64,000 bases of DNA from Bacillus gobiensis (GTDB lineage Bacteria; Bacillota; Bacilli; Bacillales; Bacillaceae), in contig NZ_CP012600.1 of NCBI RefSeq assembly GCF_001278705.1, positions 2,542,190-2,606,189 of the forward strand, given 5' to 3'. Positions 42,024 through 52,357 of this stretch are shown here, in pieces (position 1 is the stretch's first letter; each line of letters begins with the position of its first letter). The translations under genes and the position numbers were made by a program. The notes beneath the pieces are model-generated. The model was not told the origin of the DNA. It worked only from the letters and a program-made list of their open reading frames with translations, and did not search any database.

Positions 42024-43343
42024 TCACCCTGTCAAAACATCTTCGCTTGGATAACGGATTTTTTCTTGCTCAGGCTTTGCTAATGAAAAAGCAAAGGTTA
42101 GCGGTCCCAGCTTACCTAAGAACATGATGAACACAATGATGATCTTGCCGATATTTGATAGGTCGGCCGTAATCCCCATGGACAACCCTACCGTACCGAA
42201 TGCTGAAATCACTTCAAATAATAGTTTCAAAAATGGGATTGGCTCGGTAATGTTTAATAGCAATACAGCTAAGAAAATAAATAGAATGCTAATAGCCGAA
42301 ATCGAAAGCGAACGGAAAATGACCTCATCTTTAATAGATCTTCTGCCGACTGTTATTTGTTTTTTTCCTTGCAAAAAGGTTAATACGGATAAAACAATCA
42401 CTAAAAATGTAGTAAGTTTAATTCCGCCCCCGGTTGAGGCGCTTCCTGCCCCGACAAACATAAACAGCAGCATCAATGTTATCGTAGCTTCGTGTAAACT
42501 GCCAATATCCAAACTGTTAAACCCTGCTGTTCGAGTTGTCACCGCTTGAAAATAGGATCCCCAAAATTTATCGCCTAATGACATAGGGCCAAGCGTGTCA
42601 GGGTTATTGTATTCCATTGAGAAAACTATAACAGTGGCTATTACATTAAGCACCAGTGTACCTACAATCATTAGTTTCGAATGCAGACTTAATTTTTTAA
42701 AGCTTCGTTTATACCACACATCCACTAAAACAGTAAAGCCTATTCCGCCTAAAATGAACAGAGAAGAAATCACGAGGTTGACTAACGGATCTCCTACATA
42801 TCCCATTAAGTTGTCTGGCCATAAAGAAAATCCCGCATTGTTAAAAGCAGATATTGAGTGAAAAAAGCTATAATACATCCCTTTTCCCCAGCCATATTCC
42901 GGAACCCATCGGATAGCGAGCAGCAGCATGGCTATCAATTCTATAGATAATGAGAAGATAAATAAGTTTTTCACTAATTTAATAATCCCGCCGAGAGAGG
43001 TTTGATTAAGAGCCTGCTGGATAAGCAGCCGTTCTTTAAAACCAATTTTCTTTCCCAGCATGATAAAAATGAGAACTGCAAAAGACATGATCCCCAAGCC
43101 GCCGACTTGGATAAGCATGACTATAACCAGCTGGCCAAAGAGGGTATAAGCGGTACCTGTATCAACAACCGCGAGACCCGTGACTGTCATAGCTGACGTC
43201 GCAGTGAACAATGCATCGGTCCAGCTGACAGATTCGGTTGTTGCAAACGGTAGCTTTAATAAAATTGTACCTAGTATAATAAAAAACAAAAACACTAATA
43301 GCAGCAGCTGGGAGGGATTCAATCGAATGTATTTTATATTCAT
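42024..43343 (-). CDS. ktrB: potassium transporter KtrB (TrkH family)
   Basis: A 439-residue membrane protein with four M1-P-M2 repeats. The filter segments contain TSAMTVTGLAVVDTG, HSISAFNNAGFSL, QAVTTRTAGFNSLD and ISAFGTVGLSMG, each with the central Gly of K+ selectivity. It forms the dimeric potassium channel-like pore that is gated by the KtrA ring. Its start directly follows the ktrA stop, so the two are translated as one operon. The length is usual. High c-di-AMP would limit expression through the riboswitch upstream of ktrA. Confidence 0.93.
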   Translation of the reverse strand: MNIKYIRLNPSQLLLLVFLFFIILGTILLKLPFATTESVSWTDALFTATSAMTVTGLAVVDTGTAYTLFGQLVIVMLIQVGGLGIMSFAVLIFIMLGKKIGFKERLLIQQALNQTSLGGIIKLVKNLFIFSLSIELIAMLLLAIRWVPEYGWGKGMYYSFFHSISAFNNAGFSLWPDNLMGYVGDPLVNLVISSLFILGGIGFTVLVDVWYKRSFKKLSLHSKLMIVGTLVLNVIATVIVFSMEYNNPDTLGPMSLGDKFWGSYFQAVTTRTAGFNSLDIGSLHEATITLMLLFMFVGAGSASTGGGIKLTTFLVIVLSVLTFLQGKKQITVGRRSIKDEVIFRSLSISAISILFIFLAVLLLNITEPIPFLKLLFEVISAFGTVGLSMGITADLSNIGKIIIVFIMFLGKLGPLTFAFSLAKPEQEKIRYPSEDVLTG

Positions 43344-44000
43344 TTAAACTCCTTCTTTTTCAAATCGTTCAATGTCCTTATTGTTTCCTATGACAATTAA
43401 CACGTCGTCCTTATAAATAGCTTCTTCAGCAGAAGGAGAAACAATAAATTTCCCATCACGTTGAATTCCAACAATATTACATCCGTAATTGGCCCGTATG
43501 TTTAGATCTTCCAAGGAACGGTGATCAACCTTTTTTGTTGCTATAATTTCCACGATGCTGAAATCTTTAGATAGCTCAATAAAATCAATCATCTTATCGG
43601 TCACAATATGATGGGCTATTCTTTTAGCCACATCACGCTCCGGATGAATAACTCTGTCAACACCAATTTTCTCGAGAACTTTTGAATGGTTTTCATCCTG
43701 TGCTTTTGCCCAAACTTTAGTCACACCTATTTCTTTCAAGAGTAATGAAGTCAAGATGCTTGATTGCATATCATCTCCAAAGGAAACGAACGCAAGATCA
43801 ACATTTCGAACGCCCAGCTTTTGCAAAACCGTTTCATCGATTGCATTTGCACAAACTGCATGTGTGGCAAATTGCATATATTCACTGACTCTTGTCTCAT
43901 CTTTATCTACAGCTAATACTTCAATACCCATTTCATAAAACTCTTTAACAAGGGTTGATCCAAAGCGTCCTAAACCAAATACGGCGAATAATTTCTTCAT
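43344..44000 (-). CDS. ktrA: potassium transporter regulatory subunit KtrA (RCK domains)
   Basis: A 218-residue cytosolic subunit. The RCK_N (TrkA_N) domain begins KKLFAVFGLGRFGSTLVKEF and binds ATP/ADP and NAD(H). The C-terminal RCK_C domain (about 140-218, with RANYGCNIVGIQRDGKFIVSPSAE) is where KtrA-type proteins bind c-di-AMP. Eight copies form the ring that gates KtrB. The start is ATG 44000, with AAGGAAGGG upstream; an in-frame codon at 44021 lacks support. A c-di-AMP riboswitch precedes the gene, so the same signal likely controls both protein and mRNA. Confidence 0.93.
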   Translation of the reverse strand: MKKLFAVFGLGRFGSTLVKEFYEMGIEVLAVDKDETRVSEYMQFATHAVCANAIDETVLQKLGVRNVDLAFVSFGDDMQSSILTSLLLKEIGVTKVWAKAQDENHSKVLEKIGVDRVIHPERDVAKRIAHHIVTDKMIDFIELSKDFSIVEIIATKKVDHRSLEDLNIRANYGCNIVGIQRDGKFIVSPSAEEAIYKDDVLIVIGNNKDIERFEKEGV

Positions 44001-44070
44001 CTTAACCCTTCCTTGATTCATTTTCTATAGTTGTTTGTTAACAAACACAGAAGTATTACATTTTACAAAA

Positions 44071-44107: not shown

Positions 44108-44275
44108 CTCCGATCACAAGTTCACATCCTCTCCTTAACGCTTACGAGGTTAGCTGTCGGGTTCGGGTACAGAAGTAACCCTGCCTTCATCATGAAGGAT
44201 TCACCCCTAGTAACAAAATGTTTGTTACAATTCTGGTTCCCCCGTTCCACACGGATTCAGCGATCAAGATGGTTG
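44108..44275 (-). ncRNA. c-di-AMP riboswitch (ydaO-yuaA type)
   Basis: The minus strand carries the conserved blocks of the ydaO/yuaA leader in order: GATCGCTGAATCCG, GGAACGGGGGAACCA, TAGGGGTGAATCC, GGCAGGG, TACCCGAACCCGACAGCTAACCTCGTAAGCG and AAGGAGAGG. In B. subtilis the same class controls ktrAB and stops transcription when c-di-AMP is high. The boundaries are approximate. Confidence 0.93.
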
Positions 44276-45905: not shown

Positions 45906-46598
45906 TCAAGACACTTTAAGCAAGCCATACTTCCGTTTGAATCGTTCCAAAATTTTCTTCCACTGCTTTCCCATAACGGCGATAAAAAAGACATTGGAAA
46001 GGGCATGGGCAAAATCAAAAGGAAAGCTTGCTGCATAAGCGGCAATCACAGATTCCAGATTCAGCTCACTCAAGAATCCGACCACAAACCAAAGATTCAT
46101 AATCCAGCCAAACAAAAATGCAGCAATGAAGCCAAAAATAAGCTGTCCCCATATTTTTTTCATCAATCGTGTATCTTTTAATAGTCCTGCTGTAAAACCA
46201 ACCATTCCCCATGCGAACATTTGCCATGGGGTCCAAGGGCCTTGCCCGAGAAAGAAATTCGATACGACGGCTGCTGTAGCGCCAACCATAAAGCCTGATT
46301 CTTTTCCAAAAACGATTGCCGTCATGATTATGACAAATGAAACGGGCTGCACGCCAGGTAAAGGTGTAAAGGGGATGCGACTTACTGCGGCAATGACAGC
46401 GAGCACGGCGAGCAAAACAATTTCCCGGGAAGTAAATGCCCGTTTTTCAAAACGAATATATAACGGAAGCATGACCGCTGCGAGCATTAGAAAGCTAAAC
46501 CACATATAGTGTCTGTCAGACATCCAAGTCATTCCTGCCAGCATCAAAACAAAAAATGAGACAGCCGCTACATTCGCAATGTTTGATCGTTTTGACAT
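45906..46598 (-). CDS. ECF transporter S component, predicted cobalamin-specific (CbrT-like)
   Basis: A 230-residue membrane protein with six segments. The middle has VIAAVSRIPFTPLPGVQPVSF and VFGKESGFMVGATAAVVSNFFLGQGPWTPWQM, typical of a group of ECF substrate-binding subunits predicted for cobalamin. The S component binds the vitamin in the membrane and tumbles to release it inside with the T and A parts. The start is ATG 46598 with GGGAGG at a rather long 13 bases; it overlaps the double-ATPase gene by 31 bases. The B12 assignment rests on the riboswitch at the head of the operon and the family resemblance; a direct test is lacking. Confidence 0.8.
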   Translation of the reverse strand: MSKRSNIANVAAVSFFVLMLAGMTWMSDRHYMWFSFLMLAAVMLPLYIRFEKRAFTSREIVLLAVLAVIAAVSRIPFTPLPGVQPVSFVIIMTAIVFGKESGFMVGATAAVVSNFFLGQGPWTPWQMFAWGMVGFTAGLLKDTRLMKKIWGQLIFGFIAAFLFGWIMNLWFVVGFLSELNLESVIAAYAASFPFDFAHALSNVFFIAVMGKQWKKILERFKRKYGLLKVS

Positions 46599-48223
46599 AA
46601 CATGTTCACGTCCTCCCACGTTAAAGCATAGGGTTGTTTTTTACGAACAAGTCTGTTCACGCCTGTCGTATAAAAATAATTACTTGAAAAAAATCCAGCA
46701 GGATCGTTTTCCGACACAATTTCACCATCAAACAGCATAGCACAACGATTCGCATACTTTGCAGCAAACTCGATATCATGCGTGGCAAGCATGATGGCAG
46801 CTCCTTCATGCTGAAGCTTTTGAAATAGGCAACCAAGCTGTTCCTTCTTTTCTGGATCGAGCCCCTTTGTCGGTTCATCTAGCAAAAGCAGTTCAGGCTG
46901 AGAAAGGAGAGCAAGAATGATGGCGAAAATCTGTTTTTCCCCTTCGCTTATATCCAATGGATGACGATGTTTGATATGGCCTAATTGAAAATCGTCCATT
47001 AGCTTATCAGCCAATGGCTTCGGGTTTAGTTCAGCGAACTGCCGGCATCGTTCATACAGCTCCAGTTCAACCTCATCATACGTAAAATGATAAGCAGGCT
47101 GCTGGCTGACGTAACCAATTTTCATATATCTTTTTTTCTGCGTCCATTTTTCAATCCGCTGATTTTGAAAAACAACCTTCCCTTTTCTAGGTTTATGTAA
47201 CCCCGCAAGAATAGTGAGAAGCGTCGACTTTCCCGACCCGTTCGCACCAACCAGAGCCATGCAGTCCCCTGAGTGAACGGCTATATCAAGTTGAGAGAGC
47301 ACCGTTTCGCTCGTCCTTTCATATCGAAAAGTGAGGCCTGTTCCTTTTATGAGTGGCTTTCCCTCATGATGCTGCTTTTTTTCAGTGGAACCATGAAGCG
47401 GCAAACGATCATTTATGTGTTTCATACCTTCTTTCACAGAAAAAGGAACAGTATTGCTTTCACTTTCCAGAAATAGCCTTGGAATATCTGGGATGTAGGA
47501 ACGATACGCTGCATCTTTCCATAAATCAACGATGACACTTCTGGGGGAATCGTTGTAAAGAATCGTTCCTTTTTCCATAAAGATAAGCCGTTCTGCCAAA
47601 GGAAGAAGCTCATCGAGACAATGCTCGACAACAACGATCGTCACGCCGAGCTCCTCATGAATTCGTTTCAATAACTCCAAAAATTCCTTTGCTGCCACTG
47701 GGTCTAACTGGGCTGTCGGTTCATCCAACAGCAAAAGCTTGGGCTGCAATGCGAGAACCGACGCTAAATTAACGAGCTGTTTTTGGCCGCCGGACAAGGT
47801 ATGTACCGACTGATGAAGCATATATTCAATCCCTAGAAAACGTACAAGCTCAGCAATTTTTTTCTTTATGTCTTCTGAAGGAAATCCGATGTTTTCAAGC
47901 GAAAAAGCAATTTCTTGAATCACTGTTTCCATCACGATCTGATTTTCCGGATTTTGAAAAACCATCCCGATTTCACGGGCAGAGGTCACTTTATCCAATT
48001 CATGAATCGCTATTCCTTGATAAAAAATGCTTCCCTCACGATCGCCAACAGGAAGCACCTCTTGTTTAAAATGCTTTAGAAGGGTTGATTTGCCGCAGCC
48101 GGACGGTCCGCTAACCACGACAAACTCGCCTTCTTCAAGACGTACGGAAACAGAACGCAATGCTTTTTCCGACTCATCCGGGTAAGTAAATGAAAGGTCT
48201 ATGATTTCTGCATGCGCCACCAA
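46568..48223 (-). CDS. ECF transporter double ATPase (fused EcfA-EcfA')
   Basis: A 551-residue protein with two complete ABC ATPase domains in one chain. Domain 1: Walker A GPSGCGKST, Q-loop VFQNPENQ, signature LSGGQKQL, Walker B LLLLDEPTAQLD. Domain 2: GANGSGKST, VSQQPAYH, ISEGEKQI, LLLLDEPTKGLD and a switch His in LATHDIEF. Group II ECF systems usually have two separate A genes or one homodimer, so the fusion fits a dedicated transporter. The start is TTG 48223 with GGGAG upstream; the frame continues to 48400 but there overlaps ecfT and has no family likeness. It overlaps the T gene by 25 bases. Confidence 0.9.
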   Translation of the reverse strand: MVAHAEIIDLSFTYPDESEKALRSVSVRLEEGEFVVVSGPSGCGKSTLLKHFKQEVLPVGDREGSIFYQGIAIHELDKVTSAREIGMVFQNPENQIVMETVIQEIAFSLENIGFPSEDIKKKIAELVRFLGIEYMLHQSVHTLSGGQKQLVNLASVLALQPKLLLLDEPTAQLDPVAAKEFLELLKRIHEELGVTIVVVEHCLDELLPLAERLIFMEKGTILYNDSPRSVIVDLWKDAAYRSYIPDIPRLFLESESNTVPFSVKEGMKHINDRLPLHGSTEKKQHHEGKPLIKGTGLTFRYERTSETVLSQLDIAVHSGDCMALVGANGSGKSTLLTILAGLHKPRKGKVVFQNQRIEKWTQKKRYMKIGYVSQQPAYHFTYDEVELELYERCRQFAELNPKPLADKLMDDFQLGHIKHRHPLDISEGEKQIFAIILALLSQPELLLLDEPTKGLDPEKKEQLGCLFQKLQHEGAAIMLATHDIEFAAKYANRCAMLFDGEIVSENDPAGFFSSNYFYTTGVNRLVRKKQPYALTWEDVNMLCQNDQTLRM

Positions 48224-49128
48224 ACTCGCTCCCTTCCTTCGATGAGAATTGGTAATGAAATAAGCAAAAGATATATGATTAGGATAAAGATTTCTACCCC
48301 ATTTATTCCGAGCGAGGCAACTGTCGGGTAAATAGAAAGAACGCCGTATCCATAAAAAGAGCCAATCAGGCAGGTTAATAATGCCAATCCAATCATGCAC
48401 ATAAGCAAACCATCCCTCATGGTAAAACGATATCGCTCGAAGGTTGTTCTTTTTGCTGCTCCAAATCCACGCGCCTGCATGCTGTCCGCTGTCTGCAATG
48501 CCTCTTCCAAAGAAAAAACGAGTAGCAGTGTAACAAGCTTCATCCCATTTTTCGCCCGAGTACGGAGAGACCCCCCGGCGACATCGACTCCTTTTGTTTT
48601 TTGCACCATTGTAATTTGCTTGAGACGCTGAAAAAACAAAGGCACAAAACGGATCGTAATCATCATAAGGATGGCTGCTTTTGGAGATATTCTCTGAAAC
48701 AGATAGAGAAATTTGTGGCTGGTCACAATGTGATGATAAGAAGCAAATGCAAATGCAATCGTCAAAAAAGACAGTCCTAACGTGTAACCATACGTGATGG
48801 CTTCAAGCGTAATCGGATTATTTCTTAAATAAAACAATATTGTCGCGCCTCTGTGAGATAATAATGGATTCGCTGCAGCAATTATAAACGCAAGAATAAG
48901 CGAGCCCGCAATTAATTTTTTTAGTGACCGATCAATCCCGTGCATTACATTCAGCAAAATAAGGAGAATTACGGAGCAAAGCAAAAAAGTCGGATGCAGC
49001 AAAACCATTGACAGGATAATGACCGAAACATAATAAACGAAAAGAACCAAAGGATGCATGGTCGAAAATTCCGATTCTGCTTTCCTTCGGCTCAAACGTC
49101 TTTCCCCATATTTTCGGAATAGAGCCAT
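48199..49128 (-). CDS. ECF transporter transmembrane (T) component
   Basis: A 309-residue EcfT/CbiQ family protein. The N-terminal part has STMHPLVLFVYYVSVIILSM and further helices; the coupling helices with the conserved Ala-Arg-Gly motif are visible in DSMQARGFGAAKRTTF and near PKAAILMMITIRFVPLFF. A long C-terminal hydrophobic part ends in a basic tail. It links the S component to the ATPase pair. It starts inside the lipoprotein gene (37-base overlap) and ends inside the ATPase gene, so translation is coupled along the operon. Because the operon has its own T, A and S, it is a dedicated (group I-like) transporter. Confidence 0.88.
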   Translation of the reverse strand: MALFRKYGERRLSRRKAESEFSTMHPLVLFVYYVSVIILSMVLLHPTFLLCSVILLILLNVMHGIDRSLKKLIAGSLILAFIIAAANPLLSHRGATILFYLRNNPITLEAITYGYTLGLSFLTIAFAFASYHHIVTSHKFLYLFQRISPKAAILMMITIRFVPLFFQRLKQITMVQKTKGVDVAGGSLRTRAKNGMKLVTLLLVFSLEEALQTADSMQARGFGAAKRTTFERYRFTMRDGLLMCMIGLALLTCLIGSFYGYGVLSIYPTVASLGINGVEIFILIIYLLLISLPILIEGRERVWWRMQKS

Positions 49129-49916
49129 TCGATCCTGTCACCCTTTTTTACGGCAAATTCGCCGGCACTTTTCGTTGCTTTTTTTCCATTCACTTTAAAT
49201 ACCCAGCCGCTCAGATCACCACGGTCAAACTCATATAAATTATTGATACCTTTTACGTAGAGGCCTGCTCCGGATCCGCTCGTTTCCAGCTGGATATGTT
49301 TTTCTTTTGTAATTTTAAACAAGACATCGTAAACCGTATCGCCATTTTTCAAGTCGACATTGGTTGCACCGAGAATACTTCCCATATCGTTGTCACCTTG
49401 AATCATAATTTGGGCCTGATCTATCTCTTTCTTTGGTGCTTGAGGTTTCGTTTCTGTTTTTTTATTTTCTTCAGCAGGCTTCGATGGCGTTGATTTTGCT
49501 TCTTCTTTTGGCGGAGAATCCGGTTTGCTAGTTTTATCTGATTTGTTTTCTTTTTGCTCGCTTGCCTTGCTTTCCTGCTTTTTCGTTTCACCTGAATTTT
49601 CATCCGGTGCTTTCTTCTGCTCCTGAGAATCATTAGTAGTTTTTTTGTTAGGTGCAGGATCATTTTTCTTTTCAGCTTGATCTGGCTGTTTTTGTTTCTC
49701 CGTTTTATTCTGTGTATCGTCATTGCCAGATGGCTTTGTCTTTTCGTCTTTGGGTTCGGATTCTACATGATCGGAGGATTTTTCCTCGGCTGCTTCAGAT
49801 TTATGAGATGCAATCGTTTGAGAGTTGGATGGTTGTTCATTTGATGACTGCCCGCACCCTGAAATGGCAAAAGCTGTTGCTAACAAAAGACCGACAACAA
49901 ATTTCCATCTCTGCAT
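49092..49916 (-). CDS. lipoprotein with C-terminal transcobalamin-like (DUF4430) domain
   Basis: A 274-residue lipoprotein. The signal peptide ends in a lipobox (AISGC, lipidated Cys21). Residues 22-165 form a very hydrophilic Lys/Glu/Pro/Ser stalk, long enough to span much of the wall. The last hundred residues form a DUF4430 beta domain: VDLKNGDTVYDVLFKI, GLYVKGINNLYEFDRGDLSGW, VFKVNG and GDRIEWLYSENMGKD. Pfam DUF4430 is related to the C-terminal cobalamin-contacting domain of transcobalamin and intrinsic factor. The domain also occurs once in the wall protein encoded upstream. It overlaps the T gene and is led by AAAGGAGA. A cobalamin-binding role is inferred from domain and operon. Confidence 0.87.
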   Translation of the reverse strand: MQRWKFVVGLLLATAFAISGCGQSSNEQPSNSQTIASHKSEAAEEKSSDHVESEPKDEKTKPSGNDDTQNKTEKQKQPDQAEKKNDPAPNKKTTNDSQEQKKAPDENSGETKKQESKASEQKENKSDKTSKPDSPPKEEAKSTPSKPAEENKKTETKPQAPKKEIDQAQIMIQGDNDMGSILGATNVDLKNGDTVYDVLFKITKEKHIQLETSGSGAGLYVKGINNLYEFDRGDLSGWVFKVNGKKATKSAGEFAVKKGDRIEWLYSENMGKDV

Positions 49917-49981
49917 TGAGTAATCTCCTTTCTCATAGCATACCGGATTAGACCCATATCGCCCAATCCGGTATGTACATA

Positions 49982-51751
49982 TTATACGTGTAATGTTTTT
50001 CTATAGATAATAAATCCAAGTAAAGCTAGCAGTAGTCCGGAACCAAACCAAACAACCAAATCCCAGCCATAAAGTGACGTATTCGGCAGCTTGTGTCCTT
50101 CGGTAGAATCCGCTGCTTTTTCTTTATTTTGCGAATCGTCAGCAGGTGCTTGAGATTTATTTTGATTATCGGCTGCCGGCTTCTGGCTGCTATCAGTTGG
50201 CTGCTGCTCCGGCTCTGGTTTCGGATCTTGTTCTGGTTTCGGATCTTGTTCTGGTTTCGGATCTTGTTCTGGTTTCGGAGTCTGCTCTTGATCCGAATCC
50301 TTATCAGGAGCAGGTGTTGGCTTAGTTTCTGACGGAGTTTGTTCCTTCGTCCAAACATAGATGCTTCCTTTGCCATCCTGCACGGATTGATACTGAATGA
50401 GCGAATTCAAAACCTGTTCAGTAGCCATATCATTTACTCCGTTTTCGGAATCTATCCATTTAAATCCGTTTCCTGTGCGATAGCTTAAAATGGCATCAAT
50501 CACATTGTTACCGTTTTTTGTGTACTTCTCGCTAGTTGGATCATCACCGGAAAGTACAATTCCGATTAATGCCTGTGCTGCGCTGATGCTGTTTTCCTGG
50601 CCGAGACTAGCATATCCACCTTTATCAGTTTGCGTGCTGCTTAAGAAATCTCCGGCTTTTGCAAGAGCCGTTTTCACTTTTTCATTTTTATCTTTGTATG
50701 GAGCAAGCGCCGTCATCGCCATTCCTGTCAGATCCGGCTCGCTTTGTGCATCAATGGTTGAAAGTGCCCATCCTCCATCATTATGCTGCTTATTTAAAAT
50801 ATTGTCGATGAACTTTTCCCGCGTCCATTTTGCGTTTTCTGGCAGTTGATAGGTTTTGCTGTCGATAGCAAGCAACCCATAAATGACTGTATTAATCGAA
50901 CCGATTCGATTCTTTTCATCTGTATAAAGCATGCGAATCAAATTCTTCCCGGCAAAATTCGTCGGATCTTGCTCGAGGGAAAGTACAGTAAAAATCGCTC
51001 GCTCAAGATCTGTGCCGAACAACCTTCCATTTTTATCTTTAGACGTTACGTATTCTGTCGTTTTTTCTATATGCTTTTTCTTAACCGAATCAGGAATCTT
51101 GTTGCCTGACCTGGCCACAGCAAATAGCTCCCAGTCACTCCATTCCTTCTTCTTTAAGATGTGGTCAACGGTTTGCTTGATCTCACCTGTGATTTGATAA
51201 GTAGGCGGCTGTTCTGTGTCCTCAGGAACTGAAGGGTCAGTTGGCTGTTCTACCGGATCTTCACCAGGATTAGAAGGATCTGGCTGGGCTTGTTCACATC
51301 CGCCAAGCGCTTTGATGCTTTCTTCAAGGGTTTTCTCCTTTAGATCCTCTCCCCAATTAAGGGAATAACGATAAGCAATGACATCTCCTTCTTTTACCTC
51401 GTACTGATTCGCTCCAACCGTTGGTGATTCACCGTTCGTTTCATAGAGCCAGCCGCTTTGTTCGCCGTGATCCAGTTCACGAAGTCCATCAATTCCGCTA
51501 ACATATTCAAAAGATCCAAATTTGGAAACCTCAACTTTATCTCCAAGCTCCTTAGAGAGTAGACTGTATGCTGTTTCCCCTTCAGAAATTTCAATCGATT
51601 TCGGACATACGATAATTCCTTTTTCTGAATCTCCAATTACGGCCAGTGTCGCTGTGTTTTCCTGTGCAAATGCTTGAGGTATGTATGTAAAAAATGATGT
51701 CGCTGCAACCAGGACAGCCAGCCATAAAGCAATTATTTTATTTATTTTCAT
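49982..51751 (-). CDS. LPXTG wall-anchored transcobalamin-like protein (DUF4430 plus alpha/alpha toroid)
   Basis: A 589-residue surface protein. Residues 1-29 are a signal peptide (cleavage after AFA). Residues 35-140 form a DUF4430 beta domain (ISEGETAYSLL, LRELDHGEQSGW, EGDVIAYRYSLNWGED). Residues about 190-475 have the prenyltransferase-like alpha/alpha repeats (NDGGWALS, DKGGYASLG, TGNGFKWI), the fold of the N-terminal domain of mammalian transcobalamin. A Pro/Glu/Lys-rich stalk with PKPEQD repeats follows, then the sortase signal LPNTS (555-559), a membrane helix and YRKTLHV. Two Cys (49, 152) could form a disulfide. The gene is first in an operon led by a cobalamin riboswitch. A role in catching B12 or its analogues outside the cell is inference. 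Confidence 0.87.
   Translation of the reverse strand: MKINKIIALWLAVLVAATSFFTYIPQAFAQENTATLAVIGDSEKGIIVCPKSIEISEGETAYSLLSKELGDKVEVSKFGSFEYVSGIDGLRELDHGEQSGWLYETNGESPTVGANQYEVKEGDVIAYRYSLNWGEDLKEKTLEESIKALGGCEQAQPDPSNPGEDPVEQPTDPSVPEDTEQPPTYQITGEIKQTVDHILKKKEWSDWELFAVARSGNKIPDSVKKKHIEKTTEYVTSKDKNGRLFGTDLERAIFTVLSLEQDPTNFAGKNLIRMLYTDEKNRIGSINTVIYGLLAIDSKTYQLPENAKWTREKFIDNILNKQHNDGGWALSTIDAQSEPDLTGMAMTALAPYKDKNEKVKTALAKAGDFLSSTQTDKGGYASLGQENSISAAQALIGIVLSGDDPTSEKYTKNGNNVIDAILSYRTGNGFKWIDSENGVNDMATEQVLNSLIQYQSVQDGKGSIYVWTKEQTPSETKPTPAPDKDSDQEQTPKPEQDPKPEQDPKPEQDPKPEPEQQPTDSSQKPAADNQNKSQAPADDSQNKEKAADSTEGHKLPNTSLYGWDLVVWFGSGLLLALLGFIIYRKTLHV
50213..50284. repeat. 18-bp tandem repeat coding for PKPEQD
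   Basis: Four units of TTCTGGTTTCGGATCTTG (18 bp, first and last slightly changed) inside the wall protein stalk. In-frame slippage here would change stalk length without breaking the protein. Confidence 0.9.
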
Positions 51752-51784
51752 TTACTTCTTCTCCCTAATTTTTCTATATAAAGT

Positions 51785-51962
51785 GAATCTTTAATCGGTG
51801 GGGGTTTCGACGCATAGGATATGCTAGTGGAGGCGTTGCAACAGGACGCCTGAGTAATTACCTTCGTACATTACATCCCCCACTGATTGTTAGATGAAGC
51901 CAACCCTAGCTTTTACGGGCAGTTAATCCCCCACCATTTCTTACTGCCCGTTAATGCGGGAT
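51785..51962. ncRNA. structured RNA-like element in the leader of the cobalamin operon
   Basis: Several nested complementary arms lie here: AATCGGTGGGGG (51793-51804) with CCCCCACTGATT (51877-51888); GCATA/TATGC (51812-51824); AGGCGT/ACGCCT (51831-51851); ACGGGCAGT (51915-51923) with ACTGCCCGT (51943-51951). There is no coding frame of note. It looks like an interspersed structured repeat or small RNA. I recall similar CCCCCACTGATTGTTAGATGAAG-type sequences in other Bacillus genomes but cannot name a family. Confidence 0.45.
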
Positions 51963-51969
51963 AACCACA

Positions 51970-51995
51970 AAAAAACACCCATAAAAAAGGGCGTG
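51970..51995 (-). terminator. terminator downstream of the cobalamin riboswitch
   Basis: CACGCCC pairs with GGGTG and is followed by TTTTTTTGT on the minus strand. It lies between the riboswitch and the first gene and would be the expression platform. Confidence 0.75.
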
Positions 51996-52029
51996 CTTTA
52001 TTGCAAACAGTGCTTACACTGATTCTATT

Positions 52030-52232
52030 GTCACTACACCTCCCTAACACCCGTAGGAAATTTGGCTTTCAATTGAAGGCAGGTCTCCTGACTTGTGAAT
52101 TAACAATGTCTAGCGCCTTCCCGTTTTTCACAGTGGCTCTTGCTAGATATCTCCTCACTTACAGTGGCGGGTCCGTGCTGGAATTTCACCAGTCTTCCCT
52201 TTTAAATACAATGCAAAACAATGCATACCTTC
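52030..52232 (-). ncRNA. cobalamin riboswitch
   Basis: The minus strand shows the conserved series GGGAAGACTGGTGAAATTCC, CACGGACCCGCCACTGTAAGTGAGG, the B12 box CAAGTCAGGAGACCTGCC and the downstream CTACGGGTGTTAGGG. It binds adenosylcobalamin-type ligands and reduces expression of genes behind it. The boundaries are approximate. Confidence 0.95.
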
Positions 52233-52357
52233 ACTCATATCATATTCAATTAATACAGACATCTTACCATTTTCCTATATGTATTGTCTATTTCTTCTGA
52301 AAAAAAGAAAGGGTGTGATAAAATGGTTGTATTCGTATCTAGAGTGGAGATGAACCT

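Follow-up and report, generated by a model that had tools for sequence, protein, structure and literature searches.

A riboswitch-led operon of Bacillus gobiensis predicted to capture and import corrinoids through transcobalamin-like surface proteins and an ECF transporter

The stretch of Bacillus gobiensis contig NZ_CP012600.1 analyzed here (64,000 nucleotides; the window) contains a five-gene operon that is probably a riboswitch-controlled system for corrinoid uptake, in which the ligand would be captured at the cell surface, handed over by a tethered protein and imported by an energy-coupling factor (ECF) transporter. A cobalamin riboswitch leads genes for a wall protein with a DUF4430 domain and an alpha/alpha toroid, a DUF4430 lipoprotein on a long stalk, and the T, double ATPase and S components of the transporter. 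The features are listed below in window coordinates; gene starts are the start codons as listed, and later starts are possible.

52061..52247, minus strand: cobalamin riboswitch aptamer (RF00174, 115 bits against a gathering score of 31.5, E 4.1e-28)
51975..51994, minus strand: terminator-like hairpin and T run, likely the expression platform (consensus match only)
49982..51751, minus strand: wall protein gene, 589 aa, with signal peptide, DUF4430, toroid, repeat/linker and sorting signal
51365..51580, minus strand: DUF4430 (transcobalamin beta-type) of the wall protein, residues 58-129 (PF14478, 55.6 bits, cut-off 23.8)
50348..51196, minus strand: alpha/alpha toroid of the wall protein (profile A4, of which the window sequence is itself a row, 332.9 bits; AlphaFold model; Foldseek and VIA toroid matches)
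49985..50089, minus strand: sortase-type sorting signal, with LPNTS, hydrophobic stretch and basic tail (read from the sequence)
49092..49916, minus strand: lipoprotein gene, 274 aa, with lipobox Cys21, a hydrophilic stalk of about 165 residues and DUF4430
49116..49343, minus strand: DUF4430 of the lipoprotein, residues 192-267 (PF14478, 64.9 bits, cut-off 23.8; model pLDDT 94.6)
48199..49128, minus strand: ECF transmembrane component T (PF02361 CbiQ, 41.7 bits)
46568..48220, minus strand: ECF double ATPase, 550 aa, GTG start, two ABC domains on one chain (PF00005, ABC_tran, in two stretches; TIGR04521 and TIGR04520 over cut-off)
45906..46619, minus strand: ECF S component, a CbrT relative (PF12822, ECF_trnsprt, 42.7 bits; 6fnp_A match)

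The lipoprotein/T, T/ATPase and ATPase/S gene pairs overlap, and a gap of 65 bases separates the wall protein gene from the lipoprotein gene. An earlier sequence-only reading had described five overlapping or closely spaced riboswitch-led genes, and the layout bears this out. Its cobalamin aptamer was recovered by Rfam, although the limits it had proposed, 52030 to 52232, were off by 31 and 15 bases. Pfam and TIGR matches supported the dedicated ECF transporter that had been claimed, with a T component (PF02361) and two ATPase domains (PF00005 twice) completing the module. The S component, of the long type with an N-terminal extension, matched chain A of ECF-CbrT (6fnp_A) with an E value of 2.9e-14, and of 1.2e-25 when the 23-member profile A5 was used, in agreement with the B12-type S component that had been proposed. 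ECF-CbrT was predicted in 2009 and transports cobalamin and cobinamide, CbrT having a high affinity for its substrate, as stated in the available portion of PMC5997447. CbrV, CbrU and CbrT have been annotated elsewhere, including on a plasmid of Lactobacillus plantarum MF1298 (PMC6722938, available in part). The S component of that CbrVUT cluster was 45% identical to the window S component over 85% of its length. By homology, the window ECF unit is predicted to take up cobalamin.

The arrangement recurred widely. A genome-collection scan yielded 145 relatives of the wall protein, and the best 80 loci, 78 of them distinct, were searched with hidden Markov models (HMMs) from the window genes and with riboswitch model R1. 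Within 8 kb on the same strand, an S component was present in 65 loci, a T component in 65, an ATPase in 68 and a separate DUF4430 protein in 73; a riboswitch lay no more than 3 kb upstream on the same strand in 55, and anywhere in the locus in 66. The complete set of wall protein, DUF4430 lipoprotein, ECF genes and riboswitch, whose co-occurrence had been named as a check, was found in 48 of the 78 loci, representing 24 labels (22 genera and 2 metagenome-assembled genome [MAG] labels). The order toroid protein, DUF4430 protein, T, S was kept in 48/48, the position of the ATPase being outside this order check. Because the same set recurs in so many related loci, the operon is not a chance arrangement. 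Of the 13 riboswitches behind R1, 11 came from 7 loci that were later searched, and those 7 match it by construction; Rfam, which is independent of R1, identified cobalamin riboswitches in all 7 of the wall-type loci submitted to it (of 78). The unit or its parts also occurred in MAGs of gut clostridia, in lactobacilli and in Bacillales.

DUF4430 was paired with the CbrT-type S component at the level of whole genomes. In a sample of 249 genomes (the order sample; S profile E ≤1e-10, DUF4430 E ≤1e-4 and toroid E ≤1e-20, with counts dependent on these thresholds), the S component was found in 93 genomes and DUF4430 in 94, all 93 being common to both and the extra genome being G053. An overlapping sample of 398 genomes (the class sample) contained 135 with both, 3 with DUF4430 only, 1 with S only and 259 with neither. 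The mismatched genomes were G391, G476, G587, G053 and G532, and four of these five belong to one genus (g129), in which most S scores are low, and the mismatches may therefore reflect the thresholds. Long S components (>225 bits) were present in 34 genomes of the order sample, and 59 had short S components only. Toroid proteins were detected in 38 of the 249 genomes: in 34/34 with long S, in 4/59 with short S and in none without S. Toroid matches were thus confined to genomes with both a CbrT-type S component and DUF4430 (38/38), and in 37 of the 38 the toroid and S lay on one contig, with match starts 1.7 to 6.5 kb apart. The usual short-S form, in 40 regions fetched from the 59 genomes, comprised a riboswitch, a small DUF4430 lipoprotein and a small S component, with no T match in the region. 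Our own model matched a riboswitch in 35/40 of these regions, and 11 of the 14 given to Rfam carry RF00174 or RF01482.

The length of the lipoprotein stalk followed the presence of a toroid protein. Stalks were measured in ORFs (open reading frames) with a single, C-terminal DUF4430 as their only domain; of 117 such ORFs, 110 had a detectable anchor segment and 7 without one were dropped. The count leaves out ORFs with multiple DUF4430 domains, toroid-bearing ORFs and own-genome loci; some loci contributed several ORFs, and a larger protein accounts for the longest "stalk" (639 residues). In the window proteins, the signal peptide, lipobox and sorting signal were assigned by reading the sequence. 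With a toroid and a T component nearby, the median stalk was 164.5 residues (n=64), and 62/64 were at least 100 residues long; with a toroid and no T nearby, the median was 135 (n=13), and 12/13 reached this length. Together, 74/77 stalks near a toroid were at least 100 residues long versus 0/33 without one, where the median was 41 (range 21 to 74). Four short-S genomes with a toroid encoded long DUF4430 ORFs, with the domain starting at residue 163 to 198 (L097, L100, L107 and L108); stalk length therefore follows the toroid, and not the type of S component or the ECF module. To reach a partner held in the wall, a membrane protein would require a long tether of this kind, and this association lends support to a possible contact between wall protein and lipoprotein.

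The two surface proteins share DUF4430, which is homologous to the beta domain of transcobalamin. Foldseek with the single domain gave a best E value of 2.1e-3, with no match below 0.001. A full-length lipoprotein alignment (A7) was rejected, as it returned from the PDB only stalk-like low-complexity or other unrelated matches; the domain-only alignment A6 replaced it. The sequence-only reading had taken DUF4430 and the toroid to be the two folds of transcobalamin; this held for DUF4430, while the toroid shared only a common fold, with a sequence nearer to terpene cyclases and a reversed domain order.

The toroid lay within the confident part of the AlphaFold model of the wall protein (predicted local distance difference test [pLDDT] 86.4, predicted template-modeling score [pTM] 0.66). 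Foldseek with this model matched intrinsic factor and transcobalamin (3kq4, 8ixt and 7qbe) at E 3.7e-4 to 4.7e-4 over 303 to 323 columns, and for the toroid it ranked terpene cyclases above them. The structural comparison with transcobalamin that had been proposed thus produced a fold match (E ~4e-4), but terpene cyclases scored better. The window toroid scored below Pfam cut-offs (16.9 bits versus 26.1 required) but stood out in both the model and a profile of 40 members, by which it groups with the wide family of terpene-cyclase and prenyltransferase toroids. PF01122, the transcobalamin alpha family, had no match listed for the window toroid at E up to 1 and was weak in 3 of 40 toroid relatives (best E 0.0053). 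The toroid was therefore not accepted as a transcobalamin alpha domain by sequence, since terpene cyclases headed the matches of the 40-member profile, and the best 60 of 66 (E ≤10) included no transcobalamin. An active terpene cyclase was likewise rejected: the class II DxDD motif was absent at the aligned place in 40/40 toroids, one of which has DxDD elsewhere. A VIA alignment of the whole wall model listed 50 entries and no transcobalamin, which is not evidence of absence, because one fold filled the list. Given the terpene-cyclase grouping and weak PF01122 matches, the likeness of the toroid to transcobalamin is one of fold and company rather than of demonstrated close descent.

Relatives of the wall protein varied in architecture. 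By eye, six of them (P0027, P0028, P0031, P0034, P0042 and P0043) carry the toroid, hydrophobic segments and DUF4430 on one chain, that is, in transcobalamin order with likely membrane segments between. Very large wall proteins (~1500 to 2065 aa) with several DUF4430 and/or toroid copies were seen at L016, L019 and L020 and in G151. The closest named relative was from Bacillus gobiensis, with 96% identity over the searched region.

Both anchors claimed for the surface proteins, an LPNTS/hydrophobic/basic C terminus and a lipobox with Cys21, were read in the sequence. In the wall protein, a repetitive segment with many Lys, Pro, Glu and Asp residues lies between the toroid and the sorting signal. 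The genome encodes two class D sortases over the cut-off of an LPxTATN-specific model, and an LPxTAT signal was found near the end of 26/94 listed toroid ORFs by hand count. Since the window signal, LPNTSL, is a variant of the LPxTAT type, anchoring of the wall protein by this signal is likely rather than certain. In several relatives from Paenibacillus and Cohnella, the C-terminal stretches by eye resemble S-layer-homology repeats instead, and surface display may thus persist while the anchor type changes.

From the riboswitch, gene order, domain homologies, S-component family, co-occurrence and stalk/toroid association, we infer ligand binding by both DUF4430 proteins, anchoring, and a transfer with the following order and direction. 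When cobalamin is scarce, the riboswitch would let transcription through the terminator, and a class D sortase would fix the wall protein to peptidoglycan. Like transcobalamin, the wall protein would catch corrinoid between two domains, here DUF4430 (beta-type) and the toroid (alpha-type). The lipoprotein DUF4430, on its flexible membrane-anchored stalk, could then reach the wall protein, take the corrinoid and present it to the CbrT-type S component, with the T component and double ATPase of the operon driving import. The imported B12 would serve MetH and, when plentiful, shut off MetE through another riboswitch. A more specific model, to which we give slightly less than even credence, is a split, tethered bacterial transcobalamin, in which a beta domain on a membrane stalk of mostly 120 to 220 residues would dock with the wall-held toroid, close around cobalamin and carry it to the CbrT-type S component; where the toroid is missing, the stalk is about 40 residues. 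In that case, CbrT transporters in general would have DUF4430 as the partner that binds corrinoid outside the cytoplasm, and the beta domain of the human B12 carriers would be related to it.

Several observations weigh against these proposals. At least one feature was missing within the search distance in 30/78 wall-type loci, some of them at contig ends, and four loci (L020, L061, L082 and L083) had neither a riboswitch match nor an S component nearby. Among S-bearing genomes, 55/93 had no toroid match, and the wall protein is thus not needed for transport as such. Within the host genus, five other genomes in the order sample and six in the class sample lacked both S and DUF4430, which makes the distribution of the operon patchy. 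A riboswitch match was lacking in 5/40 short-form regions, and no cobalamin riboswitch was found in three Lactobacillaceae plasmid stretches (L. curvatus, MF1298 and pLp900-2). Three stalks near a toroid were shorter than 100 residues (L054, L014 and L081), and 7 DUF4430 ORFs had no detectable anchor. The relative placement of the two wall-protein domains is uncertain (pTM 0.66; pLDDT <50 for model residues 129-157). By sequence the toroid is not specifically transcobalamin-like, and the wall-protein order, DUF4430 then toroid, is the reverse of that of transcobalamin, in which the alpha domain comes first (available part of PMC11107200). Finally, the domains of transcobalamin bind more tightly as a pair than apart (PMC5599065, available in part), so that passing the ligand from the wall protein to the lipoprotein may be an uphill step. 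Because a two-domain site should hold B12 more tightly than a lone beta domain, either the wall-protein site would have to be weaker than that of transcobalamin, or the lipoprotein domain would have to take over, on the toroid, the place of the beta domain that the wall protein itself carries.

The genomes without a toroid, in which lipoprotein and S component suffice, would also fit parallel action, with both proteins binding corrinoid, the wall protein serving as a reservoir or concentrator and the lipoprotein alone feeding the S component with no direct hand-over. The dependence of stalk length on the toroid (74/77 versus 0/33), which extends to the four short-S genomes with no T match in the fetched region, argues against this alternative, and we consider it unlikely. 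The near one-to-one pairing of DUF4430 with the CbrT-type S component is compatible with a purely structural role for the DUF4430 proteins, as a lid, stabilizer or docking part of S, and CbrT alone binds its substrate with high affinity (PMC5997447, in the part available). Such a role is very unlikely, given that DUF4430 is homologous to the part of transcobalamin that binds cobalamin alone (PMC5599065, in the part available) and that single wall proteins carry several DUF4430 and toroid copies.

It is most improbable that the wall protein is an adhesin or a binder of another ligand (terpenoid, glycan or protein) that sits in the operon for niche reasons. The toroid sequence is nearest to terpene cyclases, a toroid protein of L. 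plantarum is labeled "fucose-binding lectin II", and the toroid protein of L. curvatus has a MucBP match (28.8 bits, cut-off 23); yet the cyclase motif is missing from the aligned place in all 40 toroids, neither Pfam nor NCBIfam gave a match for the lectin-labeled protein at the limits used, and toroids are confined to genomes with CbrT-type S and DUF4430. The cargo could instead be a corrinoid precursor or fragment, such as cobinamide or alpha-ribazole, rather than cobalamin, and the movement of cobinamide by CbrT (PMC5997447, available in part) is consistent with this. In MF1298, however, the S component beside cobS, identified as CblT in the available part of PMC6722938, was unmatched by the window S profile at E 0.01, and the CbrT-type S component scored 237 bits; no CblT-family profile was used in this comparison. 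Also, the one enzyme of the host with PF02310 is MetH. A precursor in place of cobalamin is thus quite unlikely, and cobinamide is a possible second cargo.

Cobalamin uptake is in keeping with B12 use in the host genome, which has two cobalamin riboswitches at E ≤0.001, that of the operon included. The second precedes a MetE gene (TIGR01371, 1087 bits). B12 enzymes were sought by PF02310 (B12-binding) only, and a single protein carried it, MetH by its domains (Met_synt_B12, B12-binding and B12-binding_2); it scored 956 bits versus the 1011 asked by TIGR02082 because the retrieved fragment is truncated at the N terminus. The eight strong FecCD permeases are arranged as four neighboring pairs, and none follows a cobalamin riboswitch. 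The operon thus stands alone among the riboswitch-led candidates for B12 import detected in this genome; an importer without a riboswitch may also exist.

In some relatives the two domains were divided between proteins. By HMM, 24/94 toroid ORFs had no DUF4430 of their own. On an L. curvatus plasmid, an LPXTG protein is toroid-only (215 bits), and a stalked second protein has DUF4430. In MF1298 the toroid protein labeled as a lectin (L127:9647-10699, WP_068807713.1, 83 bits) adjoins a stalked DUF4430 protein. The order on pLp900-2 is nrdJ, adenosyltransferase, small DUF4430 protein and S component; in L. delbrueckii the gene order is nrdJ-cbrS-cbrT-pduO (PMC5997447, in the part available), and cbrS is suspected to be a DUF4430 gene.

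The operon is classed with CbrT-type ECF systems with transcobalamin-like accessory proteins. As in ECF-CbrT/CbrTUV (PMC5997447; labels from PMC6722938 and PMC6593275; each available in part), the S component is homologous to CbrT, the unit has its own T and ATPase like CbrVUT, and a cobalamin riboswitch, or in a relative nrdJ and adenosyltransferase neighbors, accompanies it. Unlike CbrTUV, the window unit includes two extracytoplasmic DUF4430/toroid proteins and a long S component with an N-terminal extension. It shares with transcobalamin, haptocorrin and intrinsic factor the homologous beta domain and an alpha/alpha toroid as second domain; it differs from those carriers in the reversed order of its domains, a toroid with no specific kinship by sequence, and wall or membrane anchors, and its relatives split the domains over two proteins or carry several copies. 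The operon proteins are not placed in the transcobalamin family because neither its domain order nor its alpha-domain family, PF01122, was found.

A relay from wall to membrane has a precedent in kind, since the Isd/NEAT heme system of Gram-positive bacteria comprises a wall-anchored binder, a membrane lipoprotein and an importer. The operon resembles it in these parts and in the proposed hand-over across the wall, and differs in having unrelated domains, corrinoid in place of heme and an ECF importer; Pfam matched neither the wall protein nor the lipoprotein to a NEAT family (E ≤0.01). In Bacillus subtilis, BtuFCD is under riboswitch control. B12 uptake with an extracytoplasmic binder is common to both systems, and Pfam found no BtuF-type (periplasmic-binding) domain in the wall protein, lipoprotein, T or S. 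To our knowledge, descriptions of ECF transporters usually include no separate binding protein; DUF4430 partners, if confirmed, would be a systematic exception.

The claim that no Gram-positive relay of this type had been described needs narrowing, as the ECF part (CbrT) and the heme relay were known. Also already known are CbrTUV as a predicted cobalamin ECF transporter, transport by CbrT, and the name "Transcobalamin-like" given in databases to some relatives (P0013 and P0022). A table in the available part of PMC9963975 has the label "Additional lipoprotein component of putative cobalamin ECF transporter", with DUF4430 not stated there; the same source mentions an L. rhamnosus DUF4430 protein, function not known, encoded beside rtpR. 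DUF4430 has been noted in vertebrate B12 binders (PMC4350170), and a bacterial B12 role for it is not given in the available parts of either source. In the open-licence literature searched, no description of bacterial transcobalamin-like proteins or surface B12 binders was found, and the DUF4430/CbrT-type S pairing, the recurrent wall-lipoprotein-ECF operon, the stalk rule and the split forms are new. These findings bear on the way in which Gram-positive bacteria with ECF transporters capture B12 on the outer side of the membrane, give a "domain of unknown function" a directly testable function, connect a bacterial uptake family with the beta domain present in human B12 carriers, and predict that stalk length tracks the presence of a wall partner.

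Two further elements were seen in the window. Between the riboswitch terminator and the wall protein gene lies a structured repeat of ~180 bp (51785-51970), with 48 places in the genome at E ≤0.001, itself included and many of them short pieces; three copies are 87 to 88% identical over ~140 to 155 bp, and no Rfam family matched at gathering score. A c-di-AMP riboswitch (44124-44272, 106.6 bits) stands ahead of two genes (42024-44021) that by eye resemble genes for a regulator of the TrkA/KtrC type and a potassium channel of the Ktr/Trk type.

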